Origin: a virus
Strand: one strand, 5' to 3'
Length of the DNA stretch: 25,387 nucleotides
Virus record (IMG/VR): IMGVR_UViG_3300030102_006157
Location: 70,561-95,947 of that record
Shown: piece by piece, positions 13,703 through 25,387 of the stretch
How positions within the stretch are numbered: the first letter of the stretch is position 1
Layout of the letters: every line of letters begins with the position of its first letter
Program-made: the position numbers and the translations under genes
Notes under the pieces: model-generated
What the model was told of the DNA's origin: nothing
The model's input: only the letters and a program-made list of their open reading frames with translations
Database searches by the model: none

Positions 13703-13710
13703 TATTTATA
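13703..13710 (-). promoter_or_regulatory. T4-type late promoter box TATAAATA for the neck-terminase unit
   Basis: The minus strand reads TATAAATA from 13710 to 13703. The box overlaps the TAA stop codon (13708-13706) of the preceding gene, and the gp13 ATG lies 20 bases beyond it with GAGG in between. The unit probably runs through gp13, gp14, gp15, gp16 and gp17. Confidence 0.85.
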
Positions 13711-14650
13711 CGAAACTAGTAAATACAAAACAATAGTAGTTTGTGCTAGAACTTCCACCATCACCCCAAAAAAATTGATCGGCATTAGTATCACCACCGT
13801 TTTTATTGTTAAAACCGTAAGCTTCAGTACCACTCATCCCAATATCACTAGCTCCACCGCCTGAATTTGTTACATTAACTTGAAATCCCCATTGTCCATC
13901 ATCCTGTGAAAAAGTAGACGCGGTATTAGTACCATGAGTAGCACTAAAATTTGCTTCATGAGAAAATCTTATACTTTGACTAGAACCCATATAAAAATTA
14001 CTGCTGCTTGGAGTGAGAACGTGAGCATAAACGTCTCGATTTTGATCTGGATAATATAAATCATATAATCTATGAACGCCAGCAGGAAGATTACCAGCAG
14101 CACCTCCACCTATAGCATGAGTAGTTGTAGTACCTATACTACGATAAACGAGTGTTATAATTCCTTTAAAACTAGCACCGTTCCAAAAAGCCAAACATAA
14201 AAAAGGATGGCCGTCCATAGCTGCTTGACTATAATGTGTACTAAATCCCGTACTAACTCTTAAATGACTTGGTTCTGTCCAGTGAGTATTATCATATGAT
14301 GAACCAACATTACTAAAATTAGCACCGCTTTCTTTATAATTATCAAAACGATATACATTACTTAGAAAACGTCCACCAGCCGTATAATTATATATGTTAT
14401 CGATATTAGACATATTTTCAGCTAAAGATCCGTATATAGGAACAGCTACAAGTGTATATCCTTGACTTCTAATATGATTAGTTATACTAGTAAAATGTGA
14501 ACTATTTCCAGGACTATAGCTTTGATTTAAATTTGCTAATAAAGAAGAAAGATTACCACCAATATCGTCATTATAATTATGTGAACTTTGTGGAGTACCT
14601 AAGCCACTGGCGTGACTTAAATTTGATCTTGCAAAACCGAGTGGCATCAT
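13706..14650 (-). CDS. Gly/Ser/Asn-rich virion protein at the fibritin (wac) position, unrecognised
   Basis: This encodes 314 residues starting MMPLGFARSNLSHASGLGTP (two adjacent ATGs; AAGGAT upstream). I do not recognise a family. It is rich in Ser, Asn, Gly, Tyr and His, low in charge, and without membrane segments, repeats or coiled coil. Residues ~60-75 (SQGYTLVAVPIYGSLAENMS) and ~155-180 (FLCLAFWNGASFKGIITLVY) look like beta strands of a compact globular domain. It ends YYCFVFTSFV. The gene lies 11 bases after a fibre-like gene and just before gp13, where T4 encodes fibritin (wac) after the short tail fibre. It is probably a virion surface, fibre-tip or receptor-contact protein; this is inferred from position and composition. 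It shares no obvious module with the LamG fibres upstream. Confidence 0.75.
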   Translation of the reverse strand: MMPLGFARSNLSHASGLGTPQSSHNYNDDIGGNLSSLLANLNQSYSPGNSSHFTSITNHIRSQGYTLVAVPIYGSLAENMSNIDNIYNYTAGGRFLSNVYRFDNYKESGANFSNVGSSYDNTHWTEPSHLRVSTGFSTHYSQAAMDGHPFLCLAFWNGASFKGIITLVYRSIGTTTTHAIGGGAAGNLPAGVHRLYDLYYPDQNRDVYAHVLTPSSSNFYMGSSQSIRFSHEANFSATHGTNTASTFSQDDGQWGFQVNVTNSGGGASDIGMSGTEAYGFNNKNGGDTNADQFFWGDGGSSSTNYYCFVFTSFV

Positions 14651-16523: not shown

Positions 16524-17936
16524 TTAAAACGGGTGACTATTATCTGAAACTGGCCCAGTTCCTGAACTAGGAAAAAAGTTTAAACTATGATTACTTGCAC
16601 TTCTATCTTGAGGAAGAGTTGATGAACTAGTATTATCTTGGCAAGTTAATAATACAGTACCACTAATTGCTGTAAGTGGACTTGTAGGTACTGTAAAAGC
16701 TGATGTGTAAATAGCTGTTCCTTTTATAACTCGAACATTAGAAATGTATCCATTAAAGAAGTAAGATCCGGAAAAATAAGTATGATCTCCAACATGAAAT
16801 TTAAGTCCTCCAGCGCTGCCATAGTCCTTTATATCCCAGGGATTTGTTGAATTAGTTCCAGATAATGATCCATCATACCACATTTTATATGTTCCACTTT
16901 CTTTTGTAAGTGCTATATGACGCCAATTATTATATTGATTTCCAATAGATTGAGTGATTAAAGAGCCATTATTATAATCTCCAGCAATTAAATTTCCGTT
17001 ATCAATTTTCATTGAAACATATTGATTAATACCGACTTCCCATATATAATCAGGGTATGTTTGATTAACACTAGTATCAAAATTTGGTTTAATCCACATT
17101 TCTACAGTAAAGTCAGCTAAACCAAACTCAAAATCAGACGAGGGAGAAGCAGTAGTAAAATAATCATTTGTACCATCAAAATAAGTTGAACCATTGGGTA
17201 AAAAACTTAAAGTAAAAGCACTAGCTGATGATGTAGCTACATTAACACCATCAGATGCAGAAAATGTTAAACTAAAAGAACCAGCGTGTGCGCTATTTGT
17301 ACTTGGAGTTATTTTAAAAAATTTATTTGTTGTGAGAGTATTTTCTGCTAATGCGCTGTATGTACCACCAGATGTTGCACTCGATGTTACTGTGGCAGTT
17401 GAACCTATTGATCCTACACTTACCGCATATTTGTATTGTAATGTGACACCTTCAGGATCGGACGCTGATATTTCAATACTTACTGGAGTACCATCAGTAG
17501 CAAGTGAATATGAAGCATTACCAGCTGATGATATTGTTGGTTCTTGATTTGTTATAGTCGCAACTTTATACCACGCGTTATTTGATGTATTCCAAATATA
17601 TACTATACCAGTTGCGATAACAAGAGCTTGGTCGCCTGCAGCTGCAGTTGCTGGTAAATCATTTAAAGTATTATATGCTTTTACACCACCAACACTTTCT
17701 GCCGTTGGTGAGCCTCCACCAGATACTTTTTGAAATTCGTGCGCACCGGTAGAACTTCTTTTTAAAATAATTTTGTCAGTAGATGTACCAAGATGAATTT
17801 CTTCAGCAATTAATTTTCTATCATTACCACTGACATCTCTAACCATCAAGTTACCAGAACTATCAATAAGTTTTGTATTATTTAAAAATACTGGATCTGT
17901 GCCTGATCTATTTGCTCTATCTCTGGCAATACTCAT
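16524..17936 (-). CDS. LamG-domain tail fibre/adhesin, shortest paralogue
   Basis: The 470 residues have three parts. Residues 1-125 are the N-terminal module shared with the two other complete fibres here: MSIARDRANRSGTDP, then TDKIILKRSSTGAHEFQ, ending AWYKVATITN. Residues ~128-246 are an Ig/cadherin-like domain (ISSAGNASYSLATDGTP, SASDPEG, FSASDGVNVA). Residues ~250-430 are one LamG lectin-like domain, opening STYFDGTNDYF, with DFTVEMWIKP and the closing FFNGYISNVRVIKGTAIYT strand. The protein ends NSHPF. The N-module presumably attaches the fibre and the LamG domain presumably binds glycan or protein on the host. The start, 12 bases after the upstream stop, has only AGAAAG ahead of it, so coupling to the upstream gene is likely. 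This junction is a near copy of that at 23691-23704. Confidence 0.85.
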   Translation of the reverse strand: MSIARDRANRSGTDPVFLNNTKLIDSSGNLMVRDVSGNDRKLIAEEIHLGTSTDKIILKRSSTGAHEFQKVSGGGSPTAESVGGVKAYNTLNDLPATAAAGDQALVIATGIVYIWNTSNNAWYKVATITNQEPTISSAGNASYSLATDGTPVSIEISASDPEGVTLQYKYAVSVGSIGSTATVTSSATSGGTYSALAENTLTTNKFFKITPSTNSAHAGSFSLTFSASDGVNVATSSASAFTLSFLPNGSTYFDGTNDYFTTASPSSDFEFGLADFTVEMWIKPNFDTSVNQTYPDYIWEVGINQYVSMKIDNGNLIAGDYNNGSLITQSIGNQYNNWRHIALTKESGTYKMWYDGSLSGTNSTNPWDIKDYGSAGGLKFHVGDHTYFSGSYFFNGYISNVRVIKGTAIYTSAFTVPTSPLTAISGTVLLTCQDNTSSSTLPQDRSASNHSLNFFPSSGTGPVSDNSHPF

Positions 17937-18094
17937 TGTATATACTTTCTAAAATGGATTAAGTCTCGTAGCAACACAATTATTTACAGGTATTATCGTG
18001 CAATTTCCACTAGCATCAATTATTTGATTGCTGTGTTGAGCAGTTAATAACTTTGTATTTGTTATAGCAGTTAATGCTGAAGTTGGTACAGTAA
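17911..18094. repeat. Copy 1 of the duplicated fibre-gene junction
   Basis: This stretch aligns without gaps to 23666-23849 (offset 5755). It spans the 5' end of the MSIARDR fibre gene, the 12-base spacer and the last ~145 bases of the upstream LamG gene. The first 51 bases have two mismatches; most differences beyond are at third codon positions. Confidence 0.85.
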
Positions 18095-21000
18095 AGTTAC
18101 CGGTATATACTGGTGATCCAACTACTAATCTAAAATTAGATATATGACCAGTAAGAACCGCGTATTGTGCATAACCACCACCAATTGCAAGTCTATTATA
18201 AGTAATATTTGTAGAATTTGTAAAGGTTGAAGTAAATGGCATATGTGTGCCATTAAAATATAATTTTATTTCATTATTATATCTAACAATAGCCATATGA
18301 TACCATGTTAAAGGATTTATTATGGCACTACCACTTGTTTGCATAAAACCACTTCCAGAAGTAATATTAGATACATCAAACTTAGCACCATCAGCTCTAG
18401 TAGTACCTTTATTATGATATATTGTAAAACCATTGGCTGCACTAGTGCCTCCAGAAGAGGGAAATGGTACATAACTACTTGATGAAAATGACCAGTAACC
18501 ATTGTATTCATAAATTTCTTGATTGGCACTACCAACACCAAAAAGACCTTTATCATAAAACCAATATTCTATACAAAAATCACCAGAACCTAATTCTATA
18601 TTACTATCATCTACGTAAATGTAACGATTATCATAATCATCGCATTCAATAGAGCCATTAGCTTGTGAAAATGGAGATACATAACTACCTAATGGATTAC
18701 CAGATTGAATTAAAGTGTTACTTGCTGAACTATTATCTTTGAGATTAGCTGATTGAGCACCATATTGTGCAAAATTATAAGTACCATTCTTTGTTATAGA
18801 TATTGAATTATCAGATTCATCTACTATTATACCACTAGCATTACCCCTAATTAAAGTAAACAATTCAGTTTCTGAAGCAGTAGGATTGCTTACATTAGTT
18901 GTTGATTCATAATTTCCACCAGTTTTAGTAATATTTCTAGGTGGTGTAAATGCACCAGTATAAACTGCTTTTGAACAAAATCTTAATTGAGACATCCAAA
19001 TTCCGCCATCAAGACCTTGACCGCCACCGGCATGTGTACCATTAGTTTTAAATTTTCCATCAGTTATATTGTAAGAACCACCATTTGTAGTTGAAAGTAA
19101 TTCTACACCATCTATATAGACTTTTACATTTCCGCCTGTTCTAACCATAGCAAAATGATACCACTGATCTATATTTAATCCAACACCAGCAGTACCATGA
19201 ACGGTTCCACCACCACCTCCAAAAGCTGAACCACTACTTACTATACCAAGACTAGTAGGATTAGTACCACTTCCTGCGGAATAACCAAATCGATAACCAT
19301 TTTCCATATAATCAAACATAAGAGGATAAGCTACATCACCATGAGATTCAAATCTATAATAAAATTCAATAGTAAAATCACCAGTTCCTACTACAAGATT
19401 TGAGTCATTAATAGCAAGATTAGCATTTTTATTATAAGCCCATCCACAACCACCAGTTTCATATTTTGGCGCATTTTCTTTCAGTGCTAAAAATTTAGTA
19501 TTTGTTCCACCAACAGCACTTAAATCAGTAGTTGGTACAGTAAAATTAGTAGCAAATGGAGTTTCCGCACTTCCGGCTGCATTACCATTTGCAGTGATAG
19601 TGTAACCATTACTACTTGCATCAGTAATACTACCAGTACTATTTTGACAGGTTAATAGTTGTGTTCCGGATATGGCAGTTAAAGGAGAAGTTGGTGGTGT
19701 AAATCCAGAAGCAGCATAAACAGCACTGCCTGTAACAATTCTAAAATTGGAAATATAACCAGTCAATAGATGTGTAGTGTTATCCATATATCTGGATCCT
19801 AATCTTATAGTACTTCCAGTCAGATTTACTGTTGCGGTTGCACTACCTTGTTGAACACCATTTTTATAAAGATAAAAAACATTTGAAATTCGTTGAAGAG
19901 CAACATGATACCAAACACCATTAGACCCAATCGCACCTCCAGAAAAACCAATCTGTGATGATCCTCCACCGTGTGTTACAAAAAACTTATCTATTGCTAC
20001 AACAATTCCACCATCAGCACCACTAGCTTGACAAGTACTAAAATATCCATCATAACTGCCTGAAGTAGTGTGATATATCCAACCCTCCATTGTAAAATCT
20101 CCAGTACCTGAAAGAGGATTTGTCGTATCTATATAATCTCCACTACCATCAAAAGAAGTTGAAGCACCAGTTTCTGGATTAAGTGTGTAAGCAAGTTGTC
20201 CTTTAACAATTCTAAAATTAGAAATATATCCTGTAAATTCTTTGGATCCAGAATGCTTATCAGCAATTCTCATTGTAGTCGCCGTAATATTTGCGGTACT
20301 ACCAGTATAACTTCCAACTTCAACACCATTATGAAAAAGTTGTACTTTTCCACTACTATCTCTCGTAAAAGCTATGTGATACCAAGTAGTTTGATCTAAA
20401 GAGCCAACACTATATGTCAATTGTGTTTCACTATCAATTTGTGCTCTTATATCTCCATTTTTAAAAGTAACTCTTATATTTTCACTACCAATATCATAAA
20501 GAAATATTGTAGAAGAACCATTAGTATCAAAATCGGGTATATAAAAACACTCTATAGAAAATGCACCCGTACCAAAAAGAAAAGATGCATTATCTGTAGC
20601 TTCTATACGATCACCAGAACCATCAAAATAAATAGAACCACCCACATCAAATCCTAAAGTAAATGAAGATGCACTTGAGTTAGCTACATTAACACCATCA
20701 GATGCAGAGAATGTTAAACTAAAAGTACCCGCATGTGCAGTATTAGTTGAAGGTGTAACTTTAAAATATTTATTTGATGTAAGTGTATTTGCGTTAATTG
20801 CACTATATGTTCCACCAGAAGTAGAACTTGAAGTCACTGTTGCGGTACTACCAAGAGATCCGCTTGTAACTTGATACTTATATTGAAGAGCAAGGCCTTC
20901 TGGATCTGTTGCCGCTATTTCAACTATAACCGGTGTTCCATCTGTCGCAAAGCTATACGAAGCATTACCTGCTGATGATATCGTAGGAGATGCATTTGTT

Positions 21001-21383
21001 ACTGTTGCTATTTTATACCAACCTGTACCATTATAAATCATTAAGTTATTATTTGAAGTTACAAATTTTGTATCACCTGCACTATTACCAGTTAATGGTA
21101 AATCACCTGGATTTGTAACTACACCAGTTCCAACTTGTGTAGTTTCAGTTGTTGAACCATCAGTAGTTTGAAATTGAACTTTACCTGTAGAACTATCTCT
21201 TTTTACAATAACTCTATCGGAACCAGTACCAACTTGTAATTCTTCTGCAAAAACTTTTTTAAGTGTAGTACCATCTTGAGCAGTAACTTTTATATCGTTA
21301 CTACCTTCAAGAGATAAACGCACATCACTAATGTTAATCGGATCACTACCTGATCTATTTGCTCTATCTCTTGACTTACCCAT
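17949..21383 (-). CDS. Large tail fibre/adhesin with four LamG domains
   Basis: The 1144-residue product is the largest in the window. Residues 1-125 are the shared N-terminal module (MGKSRDRANRSGSDP, DRVIVKRDSSTGKVQFQ, GWYKIATVTN). Residues 128-245 are the Ig/cadherin-like domain (ATDPEG, FSASDGVNVA). Four LamG-type domains follow at about 250-400 (YFDGSGDRIEATDN), 410-610 (SFDGSGDYIDTTNP), 650-815 (LVVGTGDFTIEFYYR) and 910-1100 (GSGDFCIEYWFYDKG). Each ends in a 'GYISNFRIV.G...YT'-like strand. The C-terminus contains KLLTAQHSNQIIDASGNCTI and ends LNPF, shared with the gene at the right edge. It is the first gene behind the promoter at 21401-21408 and has a clear AAGGA. It is probably a long or side tail fibre whose lectin domains contact the host surface. 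Confidence 0.87.
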   Translation of the reverse strand: MGKSRDRANRSGSDPINISDVRLSLEGSNDIKVTAQDGTTLKKVFAEELQVGTGSDRVIVKRDSSTGKVQFQTTDGSTTETTQVGTGVVTNPGDLPLTGNSAGDTKFVTSNNNLMIYNGTGWYKIATVTNASPTISSAGNASYSFATDGTPVIVEIAATDPEGLALQYKYQVTSGSLGSTATVTSSSTSGGTYSAINANTLTSNKYFKVTPSTNTAHAGTFSLTFSASDGVNVANSSASSFTLGFDVGGSIYFDGSGDRIEATDNASFLFGTGAFSIECFYIPDFDTNGSSTIFLYDIGSENIRVTFKNGDIRAQIDSETQLTYSVGSLDQTTWYHIAFTRDSSGKVQLFHNGVEVGSYTGSTANITATTMRIADKHSGSKEFTGYISNFRIVKGQLAYTLNPETGASTSFDGSGDYIDTTNPLSGTGDFTMEGWIYHTTSGSYDGYFSTCQASGADGGIVVAIDKFFVTHGGGSSQIGFSGGAIGSNGVWYHVALQRISNVFYLYKNGVQQGSATATVNLTGSTIRLGSRYMDNTTHLLTGYISNFRIVTGSAVYAASGFTPPTSPLTAISGTQLLTCQNSTGSITDASSNGYTITANGNAAGSAETPFATNFTVPTTDLSAVGGTNTKFLALKENAPKYETGGCGWAYNKNANLAINDSNLVVGTGDFTIEFYYRFESHGDVAYPLMFDYMENGYRFGYSAGSGTNPTSLGIVSSGSAFGGGGGTVHGTAGVGLNIDQWYHFAMVRTGGNVKVYIDGVELLSTTNGGSYNITDGKFKTNGTHAGGGQGLDGGIWMSQLRFCSKAVYTGAFTPPRNITKTGGNYESTTNVSNPTASETELFTLIRGNASGIIVDESDNSISITKNGTYNFAQYGAQSANLKDNSSASNTLIQSGNPLGSYVSPFSQANGSIECDDYDNRYIYVDDSNIELGSGDFCIEYWFYDKGLFGVGSANQEIYEYNGYWSFSSSSYVPFPSSGGTSAANGFTIYHNKGTTRADGAKFDVSNITSGSGFMQTSGSAIINPLTWYHMAIVRYNNEIKLYFNGTHMPFTSTFTNSTNITYNRLAIGGGYAQYAVLTGHISNFRLVVGSPVYTGNFTVPTSALTAITNTKLLTAQHSNQIIDASGNCTIIPVNNCVATRLNPF
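18115..18158. repeat. 44-base perfect repeat inside LamG coding, copy 1
   Basis: These 44 bases are identical to 24512-24555 in the same strand and reading frame. They encode the final strand of a LamG domain (GHISNFRLVVGS region). They form one edge of the cassette difference between the two genes and are a plausible site for recombination. Confidence 0.85.
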
Positions 21384-21400
21384 GCTTTTTCCTTTTTATG

Positions 21401-21408
21401 TATTTATA
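21401..21408 (-). promoter_or_regulatory. T4-type late promoter box TATAAATA for the 1144-residue fibre gene
   Basis: The minus strand reads TATAAATA from 21408 to 21401, in the 28-base gap between fibre genes. The ATG at 21383 follows an AAGGA ribosome-binding site. The unit contains the 1144- and 470-residue fibre genes. Confidence 0.85.
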
Positions 21409-21411
21409 ACA

Positions 21412-23691
21412 TTAACCAATATAAGTTGCAGAACCTGTTGATGAATAAACATGATAAGTATATCCACCGCTCGTATGAACACTATCTCCTTGACTATTTT
21501 TTGCACCACCTGCATATCTAATAATTACTATACCGCTACCACCTGCTCCTGCTGCACCGTCACCTGCTCTACCACCGCCTGCGCCTCCACCGCCACCAGT
21601 ATTTGCGGCACCGTCTTGACCTACCCAAGTTTGTCCTGAACTAAAAGTTCCATCACCACCGCCACCTTGTCCACCATTGTGCGTAGCATTAGCGCCATCA
21701 TATTTTGATCCAGCTCCACCGCCTCCATAATAACCACTGTCTCCTGTAGAAGTTGCTGTAGCCCATGCTGAATAAGTATTCACACCATCACCGCCATGTT
21801 GGTCAGTAGCATTAGCACCGGCTCCACCTCCGCCACCGCCGCCATAACCGCCCCAATGACCAAATCCATTAAAACCTGATACTTCTACACCATCAATACC
21901 ATAGCCTTGTCCTGGAATACTTTTACCTGATGTGCCACCGTTAATAGCATAACCGCCACCACCATTAGCACCATTACCACCAACTTCTGTGGCTGCTGAA
22001 TTATTTCCTGCACCTCCGCCACCACCTCCTCTTGCTAATGCTAAATAAGATGTAAGAACTTTAGTATTAGCAGCTGCGCCATTATTCGCAGTTACAGTAT
22101 AATTGTTAGAACTTGCGTCGGTAATTGCACCAGTACTATTTTGACAAGTTAATAAGATAGTATCTGAATCATTTGTAAAAGCAGCAGATGGTCTAGTAAA
22201 ATCCGCACCGTATCTAGCTGTACTTGAAACTCTTACGTTTGACAAATATCCATGCATCGGTTCATAACCATCAGAATTTTCACCAATAGTAATTAAACTT
22301 GCTGAAGGAGTTGCGGCCATATTTGTTGCTGAATTGTTATTATTACCTGCTACATTCTTTCCATCTATATACATACGAAAGTTTTGGCCTTCTTTAACCC
22401 AAGCTAAATGAACCCATCTATTAGAAACTATATGATGCGCTGCATCATTAGTAAATAAATCACTAGTAGCAGCGCTGTAGACATACATTGCAGTAAGATT
22501 ACTAGAGACTTTTCTTCTACCAAATATTATTCTTGTGCCTGAATTAAATTCTAAAATATTTTGTTCATCACCTGGTGCTTCATCATCATAAAATGCCCAT
22601 GCTTCAACAGTAAAGTTTGCAAGAGAATTAATAATATTAGTTGAAGAAATAGTAAGATTATCATTATTTCCATCAAATTGTGTTGAACCAGCAAAAACAG
22701 AACCGGCTCCATTTACTTGTACAGAACTTGCAGTACCGGGATTACCTCCTCCTCTAGTTGTTGATGCAGCTATACCTGCTCCACCTGCCCCTACTACTAT
22801 ATCTAATTGTGTTCCAGGACTATAAGTGTATGTGCCTGATAAAATAACACCGCCTCCACCTCCAGCTCCAGATTGATAATCGGTAAAACCAGCTTTACCA
22901 CCGCCGCCGCCTCCACCAACAACTAATATTTCAATATCATGTGAAAATGCTAGAGTAAAAGCCGAAGCACTTGAATTTGCGACATTTACACCATCTGACG
23001 CATGAAATGTTAAGCTAAAAGCTCCAGAATAAGAACTATTTGTTGATGGTGTAATTTTAAAATATTTATTTGATGTTAAAGTGTTTTCAGCTAAAGCACT
23101 ATAAGTTCCGCCAGATGTTGCACTACTCGTAACAGCAGCAGTAGCTCCACCTCCATTTGTTAGTGAACCTGATGTTACTGTATACTTATACTGTAAAGGT
23201 ACTCCTTCAGGATCCGACGCAGTAACTTCTATACTTACAGGTGTTCCATCAGTAGCAAAAGAATAACTTGCATTACCAGCAGAAGATATCGTTGGAGTCG
23301 CATTTGTTATTTCAGCAACTTTATACCAACCAGATTTGTATACGTACATAAAATTATTAGCAGTAACAAGAGCCATTACACCTTCGTCCGCAGATGCTGG
23401 TAAATCACTTGTATTTGCGTAAATTGTTAAACCACCAGTTGGTTGATCAGCAGGTGAGCCTCCACCAGATACTGTTTGTAAATTAACTTTTCCTGTAGAA
23501 CTATCTCTCTTAATGATAATTTTATCATTATCATCATCACCAATTTGCACTTCAGATGTGATTAATCTTTTTGGATTATCAGATGTATCTTGTACAACAA
23601 GATCATCACTAGCATTAGAAGATATTTTACTCGCACCAATAACGAGTGGATCAGATCCTACTCTATTTGCTCTATCTCTAGCAATACTCAT
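21412..23691 (-). CDS. Tail fibre/adhesin with a LamG domain nested in a glycine-rich domain
   Basis: The 759-residue product starts with the shared N-module (1-125; MSIARDRANRVGSDP, IIIKRDSSTGKVNLQ, GWYKVAEITN) and the Ig/cadherin-like domain (128-250; TASDPEG, HASDGVNVA). Residues 253-335 begin a glycine-rich domain: IEILVVGGGGGGG, then GVILSGTYTYSPGTQLDIVV and GAGGAG. At ~336 a complete LamG domain interrupts it (STQFDGNNDNLTIS ... GYLSNVRVSSTARYG ... TDASSNNYTVTANN, to ~545). The glycine-rich part resumes at ~552 (ARGGGGGGAG) and runs in GGNG/GGGG blocks to GGSGIVIIRYAGG at 717-729, with a closing SGGYTYHVYSSTGSATY strand pair. Glycine-rich sandwiches of this kind form receptor-binding tips in T-even gp38 adhesins; the same role is inferred here. 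The start has AGAAAG and follows the upstream stop by 12 bases. Confidence 0.87.
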   Translation of the reverse strand: MSIARDRANRVGSDPLVIGASKISSNASDDLVVQDTSDNPKRLITSEVQIGDDDNDKIIIKRDSSTGKVNLQTVSGGGSPADQPTGGLTIYANTSDLPASADEGVMALVTANNFMYVYKSGWYKVAEITNATPTISSAGNASYSFATDGTPVSIEVTASDPEGVPLQYKYTVTSGSLTNGGGATAAVTSSATSGGTYSALAENTLTSNKYFKITPSTNSSYSGAFSLTFHASDGVNVANSSASAFTLAFSHDIEILVVGGGGGGGKAGFTDYQSGAGGGGGVILSGTYTYSPGTQLDIVVGAGGAGIAASTTRGGGNPGTASSVQVNGAGSVFAGSTQFDGNNDNLTISSTNIINSLANFTVEAWAFYDDEAPGDEQNILEFNSGTRIIFGRRKVSSNLTAMYVYSAATSDLFTNDAAHHIVSNRWVHLAWVKEGQNFRMYIDGKNVAGNNNNSATNMAATPSASLITIGENSDGYEPMHGYLSNVRVSSTARYGADFTRPSAAFTNDSDTILLTCQNSTGAITDASSNNYTVTANNGAAANTKVLTSYLALARGGGGGGAGNNSAATEVGGNGANGGGGYAINGGTSGKSIPGQGYGIDGVEVSGFNGFGHWGGYGGGGGGGAGANATDQHGGDGVNTYSAWATATSTGDSGYYGGGGAGSKYDGANATHNGGQGGGGDGTFSSGQTWVGQDGAANTGGGGGAGGGRAGDGAAGAGGSGIVIIRYAGGAKNSQGDSVHTSGGYTYHVYSSTGSATYIG

Positions 23692-23849
23692 TCTATATAC
23701 TTTCTAAAATGGATTAATTCTTGTAGCGACACAATTATTATTCGATATTATTGTACAATTTCCACTGGCATCGATTATTTGGTTACTATGTTGAGCGGTT
23801 AATAACTTTGTATTTGTTATTGCGGTCAATGGCGAAGTTGGTACAGTAA
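23666..23849. repeat. Copy 2 of the duplicated fibre-gene junction
   Basis: This is the partner of 17911-18094: the same gene start, the same 12-base spacer, the same stop and the same C-terminal coding segment (AQHSNQIIDASGNCTII). It marks duplication of a two-gene fibre unit. Confidence 0.85.
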
Positions 23850-25387
23850 TGTAATCTCTAAAAGGAGCGACTGAAGAACCAGTAGCACTACCACTTGTAT
23901 CAACCGTATGATTAACTGAACTTGCATCAGTTGGAGCTCCACTACTATTTTGACAAGTTAATAACTTTGTATTTGTTATCGCGGTTAATGGAGTATTTGT
24001 TACATTAAAGTTAGAAGTATAAACAGCAGTACCAACTACTAATCTAAGATTTGAAATATATCCATCAAAATCGGCGCCAGTATTTGAATTATGTTTTCCT
24101 ATAAAAGCTGTATTTCCTGTATAATTGTTAGTATCAACGTATACTTCATCATCTTTCACACCATTAAGAAATAATCTTGTAACACCACCACTTCTAACAA
24201 TAGCACAATGGTGCCAACCTCCAGTTGATATTCCATCAGCAGTAATTCTATAACCACTGTTTGCATATAATCTAAGATTACCAGACGTATTAAAATTTAC
24301 CATCAAACCTGCTGCATCATTTTCTCTTGTATCATATATAACACCACCATTAGTGAAAGCATCTGCATTAACCCAAAATTCTAATGTAAAATCATTAGTA
24401 CCAATAACTAAATCAGTAGAAGTACTTCCCGAACTTGGAACTAATAAATTATCTCCGCTACCATCGAAAATAGTTGAACCACCACCGCCGCTACTTGGTG
24501 TATAAACACCAGATCCAACTACTAATCTAAAATTAGATATATGACCAGTAAGAACAGCATATTGTGCATAACTGCCACCAATTGCAAGTCTATCGAAAGT
24601 ATAATTTGTATTAACCGAATGAGCTGAAGCAAATGGATAATATACACCATCAAAATATACTTTTATTTCACCGCTTTCTCTAATAATTGCCATATGATAC
24701 CATCTTAAAGGATCTATTATAGCTTTATTAACTGTTGAAAACCAACCATTACCACTACTATTTGTACTTTGAACTTGGAAAGATCCACCTGCTGAAGATG
24801 TGCTACCCTTTTGATGAGTCATTCCAAAAGCAGTTAATCCAGTAGAAGCATTTCCACCAGAATGGCTACTTACATGAAACGGTATTGCACCGGTACCACT
24901 ACTTGATCCAAATGCCCAATAACCATTATATGAATAAACTTCAGGATCAGTAGTTCCATCACCATATAAACCTTTATCCATAAACCAATATTCTATACAA
25001 AAATCATTAGTACCTAATACTATATCACTATCATCTACATAGATATAGCGATTATCATAATCGTCACATTCAATAGAACCACCAGTGCCTTGTGCAAATG
25101 GACTTGCATAACTACCTCTTGGACTACCAGATGGAGTTAAAGTATTAGCTGCTGAACTGTTATCTATGAGATTTGGTTGATTTATACCATATTGCGCTTG
25201 ATTAACAGAGCTAGCTATTGTTACTGATATCCCGTTTTGACTATTGTCAGTTACACTAGATGTATAGTAATCTTTACCTCTCTGTATTAATAACAATTCT
25301 GTTTCTGCAGCAGTAGGAACACTTACATTAGTTAATGATGTATAGTCACCACCACCTTGTTCTTTTACTGTATTTATATATTCACCA
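23704..25387 (-). CDS. LamG-domain tail fibre/adhesin, 5'-truncated by window edge
   Basis: The frame is open from the stop at 23704 to the right edge (about 561 residues visible). The TTG at 25296 is not a real start: the codons before it continue the family sequence (GGDYTSLTNVSVPTAAETEL), matching residues ~822-840 of the 1144-residue fibre. Two LamG domains are visible. The first (YVDDSDIVLGTNDFCIEYWF ... LTGHISNFRLVVGSGVYT) corresponds to the fourth LamG of the 1144-residue protein. The second (STIFDGSGDNLLVPSSGSTS ... GYISNLRLVVGTAVYTS) is an extra cassette. The C-terminus again holds KLLTAQHSNQIIDASGNCTI and ends INPF. The missing part probably carries the RDRANR N-module, Ig-like domain and further LamG domains, by analogy. 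Confidence 0.85.
   Translation of the reverse strand, partial: GEYINTVKEQGGGDYTSLTNVSVPTAAETELLLIQRGKDYYTSSVTDNSQNGISVTIASSVNQAQYGINQPNLIDNSSAANTLTPSGSPRGSYASPFAQGTGGSIECDDYDNRYIYVDDSDIVLGTNDFCIEYWFMDKGLYGDGTTDPEVYSYNGYWAFGSSSGTGAIPFHVSSHSGGNASTGLTAFGMTHQKGSTSSAGGSFQVQSTNSSGNGWFSTVNKAIIDPLRWYHMAIIRESGEIKVYFDGVYYPFASAHSVNTNYTFDRLAIGGSYAQYAVLTGHISNFRLVVGSGVYTPSSGGGGSTIFDGSGDNLLVPSSGSTSTDLVIGTNDFTLEFWVNADAFTNGGVIYDTRENDAAGLMVNFNTSGNLRLYANSGYRITADGISTGGWHHCAIVRSGGVTRLFLNGVKDDEVYVDTNNYTGNTAFIGKHNSNTGADFDGYISNLRLVVGTAVYTSNFNVTNTPLTAITNTKLLTCQNSSGAPTDASSVNHTVDTSGSATGSSVAPFRDYITVPTSPLTAITNTKLLTAQHSNQIIDASGNCTIISNNNCVATRINPF
24512..24555. repeat. 44-base perfect repeat inside LamG coding, copy 2
   Basis: These bases are identical to 18115-18158. 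Relative to the junction repeat (offset 5755), the offset here is 6397, so exactly 642 bases are extra in this gene between the two anchors. Confidence 0.85.

Follow-up and report, generated by a model that had tools for sequence, protein, structure and literature searches.

A LamG cassette set inside the glycine-rich head of a putative fibre adhesin from a marine T4-like phage

The fibre gene and its surroundings

The window analysed here is a stretch of 25,387 nucleotides that corresponds to positions 70561-95947 of a 99,422-base IMG/VR virus record (IMGVR_UViG_3300030102_006157). Its minus strand presents a T4-type gene order: fibre cluster, neck/head-closure, sheath stabiliser, large terminase, sheath, portal (called from the named phage genes that it matched) and major capsid. 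The major capsid protein was 66% identical to that of Phage C48C1 and 58-60% identical to those of Melnitz, HTVC008M, Mosig and S-SKS1, identities that indicate a marine T4-like phage. Pelagimyophages carry a hypervariable host recognition cluster that ends at gp14 (PMC7029224), and the fibre cluster of the window occupies the position of that cluster, adjoining the neck/head-closure genes (PMC7029224). A 314-residue ORF (13706-14650 (-)) that separates the fibre cluster from the neck genes matched none of the PHROGs. Within the cluster, four neighbouring fibre paralogues (16524-25386 (-)) have a 249-residue N-terminal anchor in common and differ in their C-terminal modules alone, constituting a series for module exchange.

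The gene under study, P0001, is the whole ORF at 21412-23691 (-) and encodes a fibre protein of 759 residues. Its anchor/stalk (residues 1-249; 22945-23691 (-)) is common to the paralogues at 20643-21383 and 17205-17936 and to the gene upstream of the window edge. The anchor is followed by the first part of a glycine-rich domain (PF21722; residues 253-334; 22690-22935 (-)), whose last strand is SVFA, by an inserted LamG cassette (PF13385; residues 335-543; 22063-22689 (-)) and by the second glycine-rich part (residues 544-759; 21415-22062 (-)), which starts with the strand KVLTSYLALA and includes the C-terminal strands. A first-pass annotation had described a 759-residue fibre in which a glycine-rich domain is broken by a whole LamG domain, and both the ORF and the Pfam matches bore this out. 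The layout that it proposed also stood, with the borders refined to 253-334, about 335-543 and about 544-757. The resumption of the domain had been placed too late (~552), since the KVLTSYLALA strand starts earlier, and its end too early (~729), since the C-terminal strands after IVIIRY belong to the domain. GGSGIVIIRY (21514-21543 (-)), taken in that annotation for the usual closing strand of such domains, is indeed that strand.

The P0001 gene was also present in a second IMG/VR contig, where 2280 of 2280 nt were identical (100%), while over 10.7 kb 9 substitutions separate this contig from the window. An identical gene in a second, slightly differing contig ruled out an assembly artefact or chimera. 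In comparison with the locus L002, P0001 was 94% identical in DNA up to gene nt 751 and unrelated after this point, where L002 has LamGs; nt 751 thus marks a swap point of the anchor.

One glycine-rich domain in two parts

Pfam Gly_rich_2 matched residues 251-335 (42.6 bits, cut-off 24.3; profile positions 15-98 of 226), and the C-terminal glycine-rich part searched alone against Pfam gave zero matches. When close relatives were sought with either half alone, the only one to appear came from the phage's second copy. Glycine-rich domains were then gathered from viral contigs by means of the closing motif and the anchor, yielding 164 segments, nearly all of 200-290 residues. A profile was built from 148 of the 164, which were mostly uninterrupted and were picked by length only, without a row-by-row check. 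In the register of this profile, residues 253 to ~330 corresponded to positions 2-83 and residues ~553-726 to positions 79-242. The separate halves scored +24 and +46 bits; concatenated in their natural order, for scoring only, they produced one match covering 2-242 of 242 (68.2 bits), and in swapped order the match broke in two. Composition-matched shuffles of the C-terminal part scored from -41 to -25 bits. The same split had been obtained with an earlier profile made from nine hand-picked uninterrupted domains. When 37 uninterrupted domains were aligned to the whole region, a single large gap appeared, over the LamG, and P0001 retained 64 of the 77 columns that were at least 80% conserved among 37 uninterrupted relatives.

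As far as profiles and alignments can tell, these comparisons confirmed the glycine-rich region of P0001 as one domain split by a LamG cassette. That two separate, degenerate glycine-rich segments act instead as flexible linkers around an ordinary LamG, with no single nested domain, is very unlikely: although the first segment alone is recognised by Pfam, low-complexity glycine-rich sequence can align loosely and the nested model described below is of low confidence, the halves fit consecutive parts of the profile in order and with positive scores where shuffles are negative, the conserved columns are largely kept, and the protein of L257 (below) has the same split in a domain that lies between intact copies.

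On our profile, the two parts together run the full course of Gly_rich_2, from the first to the closing strand, and its contiguity is broken by residues 335-543 (209 residues). Contiguity in sequence is no defining feature of this fold, and the interruption is the finding itself. P0001 is like other Gly_rich_2 phage fibre domains in its glycine runs, strand order and closing strand, whereas nearly all of the 164 segments surveyed lack such an insertion. Homologues with the glycine-rich domain and no LamG occurred in large numbers, with the two parts joined, and in L072, L078 and L080 the anchor preceding them was of the P0001 type.

The LamG cassette and its origin

Residues 340-493 matched Pfam Laminin_G_3 (PF13385; 60.6 bits, cut-off 27.6; positions 1-145 of 151). 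By BLASTN, the cassette aligned without gaps and at 85% DNA identity to L003/L004 (gene nt 1001-1629, 85.5%) and to L005 (nt 993-1629, 84.9%), and in both L003 and L005 the matching unit was a member of a tandem LamG array. Identity in 15-nt steps was 0.1-0.5 before nt ~990, 0.8-1.0 inside the match and 0.2-0.5 after nt ~1635, with ends nearly alike in the L003 and L005 comparisons. This profile of identity marks the LamG as a discrete cassette with sharp borders.

Cassettes of other phages were 80-83% identical to the P0001 LamG in amino acids and 85% in nucleotides, while the LamG cores of the other cassettes of the same phage showed ~35% protein identity to it. The 3′ linker (gene nt 1538-1622; 22070-22154 (-)) resembled the linkers that other LamG cassettes carry in the same and related phages, with a DNA identity of 79-84%; for the other cassettes of the same phage, the identity was 79-82% over about 70-85 nt. 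It is plausible that this linker served as a recombination patch. The LamG had been thought to start and end with the linkers of the neighbouring cassettes, which proved true mainly of the 3′ side. Likewise, it is a cassette of the same kind as those in the neighbouring genes, but its closest relatives reside in other phages and not in these neighbours.

The tandem LamG fibres of T4-like marine phages (L002, L003 and window positions 17949-21383) resemble P0001 in anchor, kind of cassette and 3′ linker, and the L003/L005 cassette is 80-85% identical to that of P0001. These fibres carry their LamGs head to tail at the C-terminus, whereas P0001 carries one LamG inside another domain. LamG was matched 11 times in the whole record and Gly_rich_2 once, by the interrupted domain; the corresponding numbers in the sister records G002-G004, which may be fragments, were 7-13 and 0. 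LamG domains are thus the residents of the fibre cluster and the glycine-rich domain is the newcomer. The counts and the DNA matches together suggest that a fibre family based on LamG acquired both the glycine-rich module and its LamG by recombination.

We propose that the cassette entered by recombination within the phage fibre cluster. The glycine-rich module could also have arrived from another phage with the LamG already inside, in which case the nesting would have taken place outside this lineage. Such an import would agree with the zero empty glycine-rich copies in the record and its sister records and with the nested proteins of unrelated phages, but it seems rather unlikely, given that the nested LamG shares 80-83% of its residues with cassettes of other phages, including L003 from the same anchor family, and 28-33% with the LamGs nested elsewhere.

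A beta-hairpin turn as the insertion site

In intact relatives, the segment at the insertion site reads G-x-x-S-V-F, a short turn and then I-T-S-T-G-G-G; in P0001, the same segment reads GAGSVFA, the LamG and then KVLTSYLALARGGG. The model of an intact relative, L146 (pLDDT 93.8, pTM 0.91), showed these strands as a hairpin (64-70/73-80) and a second hairpin at 160-162/169-171, and in the nested P0001 model residues 331-338 and 545-553 formed the matching strands. The alignments used for structure prediction left out rows taken from named phage records. The nested model was weak overall, at a mean pLDDT of 58.6, with ~60-88 in most blocks of the glycine parts and mostly <50 in the LamG part, in which a jelly-roll, concanavalin A-like fold was looked for. 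The low LamG values arose because no LamG rows were alignable together with glycine-rich rows; a joint alignment by MAFFT put the halves in the wrong places. The glycine parts of the nested model superposed on single intact BFVD domains (263-292 residues) with a TM by target of 0.69-0.74 over ~510-530 columns, the alignment spanning a gap of about 230 columns, a result that is consistent with one domain but not independent, because the model's alignment of intact domains presupposes joined halves.

On the alignments and models, the LamG is predicted to sit at the turn of a β-hairpin of the β-framework, after the GxxSVF strand, and not in a loop between glycine helices as first annotated. Not all alignments placed the first hairpin strand on the same side of the cassette: it came to lie ahead of it in some and behind it in others.

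The glycine-rich tips of phage fibres are described as receptor-binding heads (PMC9608196). The Pam3 gp24 tail fibre (7YPX/7YFW; TNF-like plus glycine-rich), a cyanophage fibre tip, and S16 gp38 have a glycine-rich head on a β-framework like P0001 and, unlike P0001, no inserted domain. The matches to the Pam3 fibre were below significance both by sequence profile (E 0.067-0.091) and by fold (TM 0.37), and the top Foldseek matches were ALK/LTK, whose TG domain is of this TNF-like plus glycine-rich kind, and Pam3, none below E 0.001. From the strand order and the description of Pam3 gp24 (PMC9608196), we infer that the hairpin turn probably faces away from the glycine tips.

Nested modules in other fibre proteins

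Further nested cases were looked for with scans that used fixed codons and spacings, so that their true number is higher than the number returned. One scan, whose target was a glycine run after a LamG linker, returned L222, where the LamG lies in the second hairpin (profile positions 2-175, then 156-242). A second scan found L257:3891-6983 (-). Its product has three glycine-rich domains in tandem; a LamG splits the central domain, and those on either side of it are intact. These two proteins, from other IMG/VR contigs, have the nested architecture of P0001, L257 at the same hairpin (profile positions 2-77, then 64-241) and L222 at a different one. The three nested LamGs were 28-42% identical to one another (28-33% between P0001 and the other two, 28% for L257), versus 83% between the P0001 LamG and a non-nested LamG, which makes independent insertions the simplest reading. 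In L175:4825-6768 (+), ~80 residues of a non-LamG module (TTLTVGGTVTNTFYAGMALSGTGV...) were located at the first hairpin of the glycine-rich domain; this insert matched no Pfam family. A split-domain test of the 537 glycine-containing ORFs in all loci examined gave three LamG cases (P0001, L222 and L257). In addition, BFVD entries A0A6J5L2W1 (named concanavalin A-like) and A0A6J7XNJ3 gave alignments of 496 and 432 columns, respectively, with the intact model (TM 0.84), and these lengths would imply large insertions.

The long domains of L094, L096, L134, L139, L145, L200 and L202 were rejected as insertions, being tandem domains or wrong starts. L223 encodes, in one 735-residue ORF, a LamG, a glycine-rich domain and a LamG in tandem, not nested. 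No true nested case came out of a junction scan of GTDB genomes, a viral scan with a wider LamG-to-glycine pattern added nothing further, and among named phages the fetched regions of four LamG matches (DSL-LC04, S-RS29, S-MbCM7 and a 735-kb uncultured phage) had no glycine-rich domain. No description of a LamG nested in a glycine-rich fibre domain was found in the open literature, most subscription journals lying outside the search. Judged by these sequences, a LamG nested in a glycine-rich head appears to be rare but recurrent, with at least two further phages carrying one. The combination of two kinds of host-binding domain is thus unusual, as first supposed, although not unique: L257 and L222 have nested LamGs and L175 another module.

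A putative two-site adhesin

LamG domains commonly bind glycans or proteins. We consider it highly probable, as a joint account, that P0001 is a fibre adhesin whose glycine-rich head bears a LamG at a hairpin, that this arrangement originated by recombination and that the protein binds at two sites. The gene would encode a tail-fibre or baseplate-fibre adhesin attached to the virion by its N-terminal 249 residues, and its distal head would be one glycine-rich domain, with a β-framework and glycine-rich loops at one end. With the hairpin turn opposite the glycine-rich tips, the LamG would project near the fibre stalk and leave the tips undisturbed. Head and LamG may then bind different cell-surface targets, a glycan in the case of the LamG, and a head that combines the two is most simply viewed as a two-site adhesin.

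The architecture could also be real and the LamG of no use as a binding domain, a neutral passenger that a permissive hairpin tolerates. The rarity of the arrangement (three LamG cases among the loci examined) is compatible with a passenger, and the gene, identical in both records, gives no measure of selection; we nevertheless hold this to be unlikely, as neither the reading frame nor the full-length cassette is damaged, the fibre cluster trades mainly in LamG cassettes (11 in the record) and insertions have recurred independently at hairpins. Extending the two-site reading, hairpin turns of glycine-rich heads might be general docking sites into which LamG or other modules are plugged repeatedly, producing two-site adhesins with untouched variable tips, a generalisation that we put forward tentatively and with some doubt.

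Phage fibres evolve by end-to-end domain swapping. P0001 is a variant of this modular evolution that is insertional, not end-to-end: a whole, putatively binding domain has been set inside another, in frame and at a predicted hairpin turn, and equivalent hairpins have apparently received such insertions repeatedly. Should head and LamG have different targets, P0001 would exemplify how an adhesin for two receptors is designed in nature, and it would mark an insertion point that leaves the head whole. L257, whose protein combines a filled domain with two empty ones, provides a natural internal control for the insertion and makes the idea directly testable.

The intact glycine-rich fold was also predicted in eukaryotic algal viruses (Micromonas pusilla virus SP1 and a Bathycoccus virus), and this type of head is therefore not limited to phages.
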